Source of the DNA: Flavisphingopyxis soli
GTDB lineage: Bacteria; Pseudomonadota; Alphaproteobacteria; Sphingomonadales; Sphingomonadaceae
Reading direction: 5' to 3'
DNA length: 64,000 nucleotides
Assembly: GCF_007995095.1 (NCBI RefSeq)
Contig: NZ_VOPY01000002.1
Location: forward strand, 1 to 64,000
Made by a program: the position numbers and the translations under genes. The notes beneath the pieces are model-generated. The model saw only the letters and a program-made list of their open reading frames with translations, searched no databases and was not told the origin of the DNA. This document shows, piece by piece, positions 49,562-49,716 of the stretch; position 1 is the first letter of the stretch; each line of letters starts with the position of its first letter.

Positions 49562-49716
49562 TTAACCATCGGTGAGTCCTTGGAGTCACACCACTAGCAC
49601 TGGTGGGCATGTCGGCAGGCTTGACTCCACATGTCGTGGGGGACTCGTTTCGTTCCCGCCGCGTTAACCATTTTGTGAGGCTCTACCGCTAAGCTTTTGA
49701 CCTTGACCGCGGAGTC
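49562..49716 (+). promoter_or_regulatory. ccrM control region: five GANTC sites and two TTAACCAT boxes
   Basis: The 201-base rnhB-ccrM gap holds GANTC at 49574, 49583, 49623, 49642 and 49712, and TTAACCAT at 49562-49569 and 49664-49671. GANTC is the CcrM target; by chance about one per 256 bases is expected. TTAACCAT matches the CtrA half-site. The first box is preceded by TTAA at 6-base rather than 7-base spacing; the second has only TTCC in the partner position. The arrangement fits the Caulobacter scheme, where CtrA activates and methylation modulates ccrM. Confidence 0.65.

Follow-up and report, generated by a model that had tools for sequence, protein, structure and literature searches.

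NrdR is a (d)ATP-sensing regulator of ribonucleotide reductase genes. Its operators are pairs of 16-bp palindromes, and spacers of 14–17 bp were bound well by all four NrdR proteins tested in one report (PMC12051234). In Caulobacter, the presence of a GANTC between the −35 and −10 elements goes with a distinct activation time (PMC4287350). The binding of GcrA is reported to depend on GANTC methylation, and mutation of GAnTC cut four of five tested promoters by 60–80% (PMC3667746). Control of ccrM, the gene of the GANTC methyltransferase, by GcrA was inferred by Adhikari and colleagues in 2021, who describe ccrM as a core target that was lost in Caulobacterales (PMC7987155), and methylation of GANTC has been described in a Sphingomonas (PMC8067484).

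The region in front of ccrM in the window (the whole 64-kb stretch of DNA that was analysed) is probably a composite, in which a methylation-type core promoter (49703–49731) follows a candidate NrdR operator (49572–49660). The features are collected in Table 1. The five GANTC sites reported in the earlier note (at 49574, 49583, 49623, 49642 and 49712) and its two TTAACCAT sites (at 49562 and 49664) are exact in their positions. A CcrM match was obtained in 57 of 59 relatives; the two genomes with no match (G035 and G058, family f2) keep a GcrA match.

Table 1. Coordinates of the features in and around the ccrM upstream region of the window.
Feature	Position	Strand	Basis or remark
rnhB (ribonuclease HII), upstream gene	48974..49555	+	Pfam RNase_HII E 6.2e-36; ORF end 49555
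TTAACCAT, upstream CtrA-type half site	49562..49569	+	Not conserved; missing from same-genus L002
Upstream module, whole	49572..49660	+	Model R1 E 5.7e-16 (window in training set)
GANTC 1 (GAGTC), outer module site; ACACC starts 14 bases on	49574..49578		Same offset in 81/90 loci with ACACC
GANTC 2 (GAGTC), extra site	49583..49587		Offset −5 from ACACC in 6/90 loci
Left NrdR-type box CCACTAGCACTGGTGG	49591..49606		9/16 against the NrdR consensus; aligned with relatives' boxes
GANTC 3 (GACTC), overlapping the outer edge of the right box	49623..49627		
Right NrdR-type box ACTCCACATGTCGTGG	49624..49639		10/16 against the NrdR consensus; centre 33 bp from left box
GANTC 4 (GACTC), past the right box	49642..49646		+53 to +55 from ACACC in 48/90 loci
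Conserved GTTC	49652..49655	+	C or T next in 87/109 loci
TTAACCAT, CtrA-type half site, 39 bases before −35	49664..49671	+	TTAACC in 42/109 loci
Predicted −35 element TTGACC, core promoter	49703..49708	+	
GANTC 5 (GAGTC), first of the spacer sites in the core promoter	49712..49716		Offset 9 in L001; relatives' +19 site missing here
Weak −10 element CAGTCT	49726..49731	+	Inferred from 17-bp spacing, sequence and relatives' fixed +19 geometry
ccrM, GANTC adenine methyltransferase, 377 aa	49757..50890	+	Start ATG 49757; Pfam N6_N4_Mtase E 8.1e-68, RAMA E 2.5e-19

We compared the density of GANTC in this region with that of the genome and with that of homologous promoters. A genome sample of 464 kb (the window and 20 stretches of 20 kb, from a 2.59-Mb genome) contains 666 GANTC, or 1.44 per kb, and the 64 kb of the window contain 74, against about 340 expected from dinucleotide shuffles. 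The real background is thus lower than the chance rate of about one per 256 bases from which the earlier note had reasoned. Its claim that the sites outnumber chance was borne out, the probability of at least five GANTC in 143 bp being about 2.6e-6 at 1.44 per kb. The ccrM cluster is the sole one in the 464-kb sample with more than three GANTC per 150 bp, and all five of its sites are GAGTC or GACTC, the rarer forms, which account for 168 of the 666. The sample also holds five occurrences of TTAACCAT over both strands, two of them here. The array is conserved in relatives and stands far over the genome background; that GANTC is depleted genome-wide yet enriched between genes is already known (PMC3973325). 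The suggestion that the array is denser than usual for a single promoter, on the other hand, is correct with respect to the genome itself but not with respect to homologous ccrM promoters. The median number of GANTC per 300 nt upstream of ccrM is 6 (IQR 5–7) in 117 Sphingomonadaceae loci, of which 91 have at least five, and the window has 5.

The core promoter has the arrangement of the GcrA/CcrM type, namely a GANTC inside the −35/−10 interval of a sigma-70-like promoter, with one such spacer site in the window. TTGAC followed by a GANTC starting 4–20 bases on was found in 131 of the 137 ccrM loci of the order, which come from two draws (57 and 80); the 6 loci without this combination were left out of the core-geometry counts. 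Two spacer GANTC are present in 93 of the 137 loci, and in 86 of these 93 the distance between the first T of TTGAC and the start of the second GANTC is exactly 19 bases. The position of the first spacer GANTC in the two-site loci is variable (+6 to +12), and the window and its genus mate have this first site only. In a class-wide draw of 69 loci, which come from the upper part, by score, of the 163 genomes in which CcrM was matched, the same promoter type occurs in 52 and the +19 site in 36. The GcrA family is encoded in all 59 relatives, and GcrA is encoded in the window's own genome (PF07750, E 1.8e-25). Because ccrM has been listed as a core GcrA target (PMC7987155), the core-promoter half of the region is of an already known kind. 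Like the GcrA/CcrM sigma-70 promoters of Caulobacter (ctrA P1 and mipZ), it has a GANTC between −35 and −10 in a genome that encodes both GcrA and CcrM. It differs from them in that most relatives carry two spacer sites in fixed register, with one in the window, and in that the target is ccrM itself.

Promoters with TTGAC and GANTC were not enriched in the 464-kb sample of the window's own genome, in which the histogram of offsets was flat. One instance in this genome (L063:14555, minus strand) has TTGAC-N14-GATTC and a second GAATC 87 bases before an ORF, in the geometry of the ccrM core; we take this ORF to resemble ftsK. A perfect DnaA box (TGTGGATAA or TTATCCACA) was observed in 43 of 109 Sphingomonadaceae ccrM promoter regions, often directly after the −10; none was seen in the ccrM promoter region of the window.

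In Caulobacter, CcrM is timed through CtrA and proteolysis (PMC3667746), and the ccrM promoter of that organism is CtrA-activated (PMC2877005). CtrA is described as conserved in Sphingomonadales (PMC2877005), and growth and viability of Sphingomonas melonis were reported to be unharmed by its loss (PMC8116508). The window resembles the Caulobacter promoter in having a TTAACCAT half site near the promoter. It differs in that the full site TTAA-N7-TTAA is found in none of 109 Sphingomonadaceae ccrM loci, the window having half sites only, and in that TTAACC is found in just 42 of the 109. The two CtrA-type sites proposed in the earlier note fared differently: the position of the one at 49664 (−39 from the −35) is common to other loci, but the one at 49562 is missing in a relative of the same genus.

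Four of the five GANTC sites of the window (49574–49646) fall in an upstream module, and the site at 49712 alone lies in the core promoter. This second element is located about 60–130 bp before the −35 in Sphingomonadaceae and consists of GAGTC-N9-ACACC, two arms, and then GACTC with TTTCGTTC. From 115 loci, 109 were used in the element counts and 93 in the module set, 50 of the latter in model R1. Of the 109 loci, 90 contain ACACC, whose median position relative to the −35 is −114 (IQR −115 to −113); in 81 of these 90 a GAGTC precedes it by exactly 14 bases. The right arm reads GANTCnAnAT in 70 of the 93 modules. Model R1 finds a single place in the window's own genome, 49572–49660; since the window is among the 50 loci of R1, this match is by construction. 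A profile from which the window's genus was excluded has 49572–49658 (E 6e-15) as its sole match in the window. In a search of 59 genomes with R1, every match with E up to 0.024 adjoins ccrM, and many matches recur on the opposite strand in register, which demonstrates the dyad. The module is kept in loci with no rnhB detected in the 1.5 kb upstream (for example L010, L014, L020 and L028), indicating that it goes with ccrM. The left box of the window is still palindromic without the GANTC that relatives carry there.

The outer elements at 49574–49582 (GAGTC-TTTCG-like) and 49642–49655 (GACTC-n-TTTCGTTC) are conserved and flank the box pair, and in L296 parts of them remain after loss of the boxes. 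The conserved GTTC was considered as an EcfG or LexA site, and appears to fit neither consensus.

Each arm of the module is an imperfect palindrome of 16 bp (approximately CCACaAGATnTTGAGT and ACTCAAYATCTTGTGG), and the two centres are mostly 33 bp apart. We scored the arms against an NrdR consensus and called a pair at a sum of at least 20 of 32 with a centre-to-centre distance of 31–34. Such pairs occur in 95 of 115 Sphingomonadaceae ccrM upstreams, compared with 1 of 1860 windows of the own genome and 2 of 569 coding windows, and the distances among the 95 are 33 (62 pairs), 32 (28) and 31 (5). Two scans, with forms of the consensus that are unlike at one position, gave 95 and 85 of the 115 loci. 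None of 600 permutations of the palindromic half-sites reached the real count of 85, with near-identical permutations reaching 80. Paired 16-bp palindromic boxes of the NrdR type are therefore present in the locus family, and those of the window are assigned by homology. The gap of the window's pair, 17 bp, is inside the 14–17-bp spacer rule (about three helical turns). Its sum of 19 of 32 is under the threshold, and a sum of at least 19 is scored by 11 placements in 464 kb, the pair itself being one of them; given this weak agreement with the consensus, the pair is identified through its homology with the module of the family. The window's genome has an nrdR gene (TIGR00244).

Similar boxes are found at nrdA. 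Leaving aside G026 and the other-family locus L262, a pair is present upstream of nrdA in 20 of 25 NrdR-plus genomes of the family, the other 5 being under threshold, and in 0 of 9 NrdR-less genomes. The nrdA boxes of the window's own genome (GCACTATCCATGGTGG and CCCCTAGACGTAGTGG) have centres 33 bp apart and a sum of 21, and contain no GANTC. In several relatives the first nrdA box is GATTCAGTATCTAGTGG, similar in sequence to the right ccrM arm GACTCAAYATCTTGTGG, GANTC included. In four nrdA upstreams (L269, L281, L282 and L292) inspected by eye, a −35 of the TTGC type is followed by GANTC at roughly +8 and +19, the spacing found at ccrM, and the −10 is covered by an NrdR-type box.

The ccrM pair shares with NrdR operators at ribonucleotide reductase genes two 16-bp palindromic boxes, a gap of 15–17 bp, an nrdR gene in the genome, absence together with NrdR, and like boxes at nrdA of the same family. 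It differs from the known operators in its target, in lying upstream of the recognised core promoter and not over it, and in the overlap of GANTC with the box edges in Sphingomonadaceae. No link between NrdR and ccrM was found in the open-access literature searched, and the main text of a proteobacterial regulon survey that includes NrdR makes no mention of ccrM (PMC5343134).

The relationship between the module and NrdR was analyzed in 297 Sphingomonadaceae genomes with a completeness of 95% or more. Ten of them lack NrdR (seven of genus g7, two of g20 and one of g26). The module, taken as an R1 match, is missing in 25, namely in 9 of the 10 NrdR-less genomes and in 16 of the 287 NrdR-plus genomes (Fisher 4e-10 with relatedness ignored). 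Twenty of these 25 were listed as negative, and five (G445, G448, G457, G494 and G513) were recognised from gaps among the positives, after which their upstreams were read. The nine genomes without NrdR and module have no boxes at ccrM or nrdA, and all nine keep TTGAC and two spacer GANTC at ccrM. The two halves of the array are separate: the core promoter is independent of NrdR, and the upstream module tracks NrdR. Within genus g7, the lone NrdR-plus genome drawn (G472) keeps the boxes at both ccrM and nrdA, whereas the seven NrdR-less genomes have neither. The nine genomes that lack both NrdR and the module form two separate groups on a CcrM tree, with two changes forced by well-supported branches, so that the event-level evidence amounts to two of two losses and not nine; the tree is that of CcrM and not of the species, and G472 groups apart from its genus mates. 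Both marks of an NrdR operator, an encoded NrdR and absence of the operator where NrdR is missing, were found, the latter in 9 of the 10 genomes and over these two events. The tenth genome, G026, has no NrdR in a 380-contig assembly yet keeps the module and the nrdA boxes, which suggests that nrdR is probably unassembled. The 16 NrdR-plus genomes without an R1 match indicate that the module was also lost without loss of NrdR, in more lineages than with it. Among the 16, G029 still has a pair of sum 21, and G392 gave no ccrM match. In G007 and G020 the gene directly upstream is not rnhB, and the module could have been removed by a rearrangement.

In seven other families of the order, represented by 22 loci (L033–L057 without L035, L038 and L049), a pair like ACGCAGGATATGGTGT and GCACTAAAGCTTGTGG (centres 32 bp apart) lies inside the 3′ end of rnhB, 136–139 bp before the ccrM −35 in 21 of the 22. 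The sum is at least 20 in 19 of them. At the pair, rnhB uses the codons GGA (22/22) and CTA (22/22), the usage of which in ccrM of the same loci is 7.9% and 4.5%. In Sphingomonadaceae, where the boxes are intergenic, GGA stands at the corresponding rnhB position in 7 of 79 loci and CTA in none of 79. The pair of these sister families is thus an apparent operator inside the rnhB coding sequence. In other orders a pair was found with a generic consensus in 26 of 67 ccrM upstreams, compared with 2 of 201 coding windows. These pairs point to an old link, with NrdR as a putative binder there.

The losses bear directly on the proposal of the earlier note that the whole array is a strong methylation feedback on ccrM. 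Feedback is in keeping with the conserved GANTC core promoter, but the array as one feedback device is unsupported, since four of its five sites belong to a separate module that is missing in 9 of the 10 NrdR-less genomes while the core stays. An account in which ccrM responds to its own methylation through the dense array, mainly via GcrA and with CtrA at TTAACCAT, and in which the dyad is made of GcrA/CcrM sites, has on its side the conserved core geometry (second GANTC at +19 in 86/93 loci, and in 36/69 class-wide), the presence of GcrA in 59 of 59 genomes, the dependence of GcrA binding on methylation together with the crippling effect of GAnTC mutations (PMC3667746), the inferred status of ccrM as a core GcrA target (PMC7987155) and the methylation of GANTC in a Sphingomonas (PMC8067484). 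We nevertheless consider it unlikely, as it leaves unexplained why genomes without NrdR lack the module and yet keep the core, why similar boxes are found at nrdA, and why the left box of the window is palindromic without the GANTC of its relatives. The boxes might instead bind another dyad-reading regulator, whose loss would coincide with that of NrdR by chance or through a shared lifestyle. That there are two NrdR loss events only, that the conserved flanking GAGTC/ACACC and GTTC fall outside the NrdR account, and that the loss evidence concerns Sphingomonadaceae and not the rnhB pair of the sister families would all be compatible with this. However, sequence, box size and spacing match the NrdR pair, and the nrdA boxes vanish in the same nine genomes, which makes another regulator quite improbable. 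An RNA hairpin or leader is hardly credible, because Sphingomonas-type loci keep the right arm with the left GAGTC gone, even though the GAGTC and GACTC of the arms are complementary; no Rfam match attained the gathering score in 8 loci, the window stretch yielded weak chance matches only, and the reading of the module as an RNA family was rejected for want of an Rfam match.

For the composite of core promoter and NrdR operator, the sequence, position and conservation of the boxes, their resemblance to those at nrdA and their disappearance with NrdR are observations, from which we infer binding by NrdR, the direction of control and any role of methylation at the boxes. The core promoter (49703–49731), with its sigma-70-like −35 TTGAC and spacer GANTC, would be activated by way of GcrA when its GANTC is methylated. 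Both boxes would be occupied by NrdR, which would adapt ccrM transcription to the dNTP pool; with dATP high, NrdR would be loaded and ccrM transcription most likely lowered. Activation is possible, as has been reported of NrdR for topA in Pseudomonas (PMC4409342). The boxes lie 64–112 bp before the core −35, and repression would therefore call for blocked upstream activators, bending of the DNA or a second promoter beneath the boxes. For a second promoter with its −10 inside the right box, no −35 was seen by eye. CtrA at 49664 may act alongside, the CtrA half sites being presumably a lineage-variable addition. Several of the array's GANTC lie at box edges, and the crowding of GANTC is in part a by-product of a conserved box pair that resembles a docking place for NrdR.

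A reciprocal circuit, in which NrdR would set both ccrM and nrdA by the dNTP pool and CcrM methylation at the box edges would gate NrdR binding, is a doubtful extension of the NrdR reading. The sites for such a circuit would be the GANTCnAnAT right arm of 70 of 93 ccrM modules, the GATTC that several relatives have at their first nrdA box and, in the window, an overlap at the right ccrM box only. If it were true, epigenetic state, replication and nucleotide supply would be coupled. An NrdR operator on ccrM would in itself let a nucleotide signal act directly on the methylation cycle, and a DNA methyltransferase would join the NrdR regulon, which is known mainly for ribonucleotide reductases. 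Two lineages that have lost NrdR naturally while keeping the core promoter offer ready-made comparisons. The sister-family pair locked into rnhB would be a striking example of codon choice that carries regulation.
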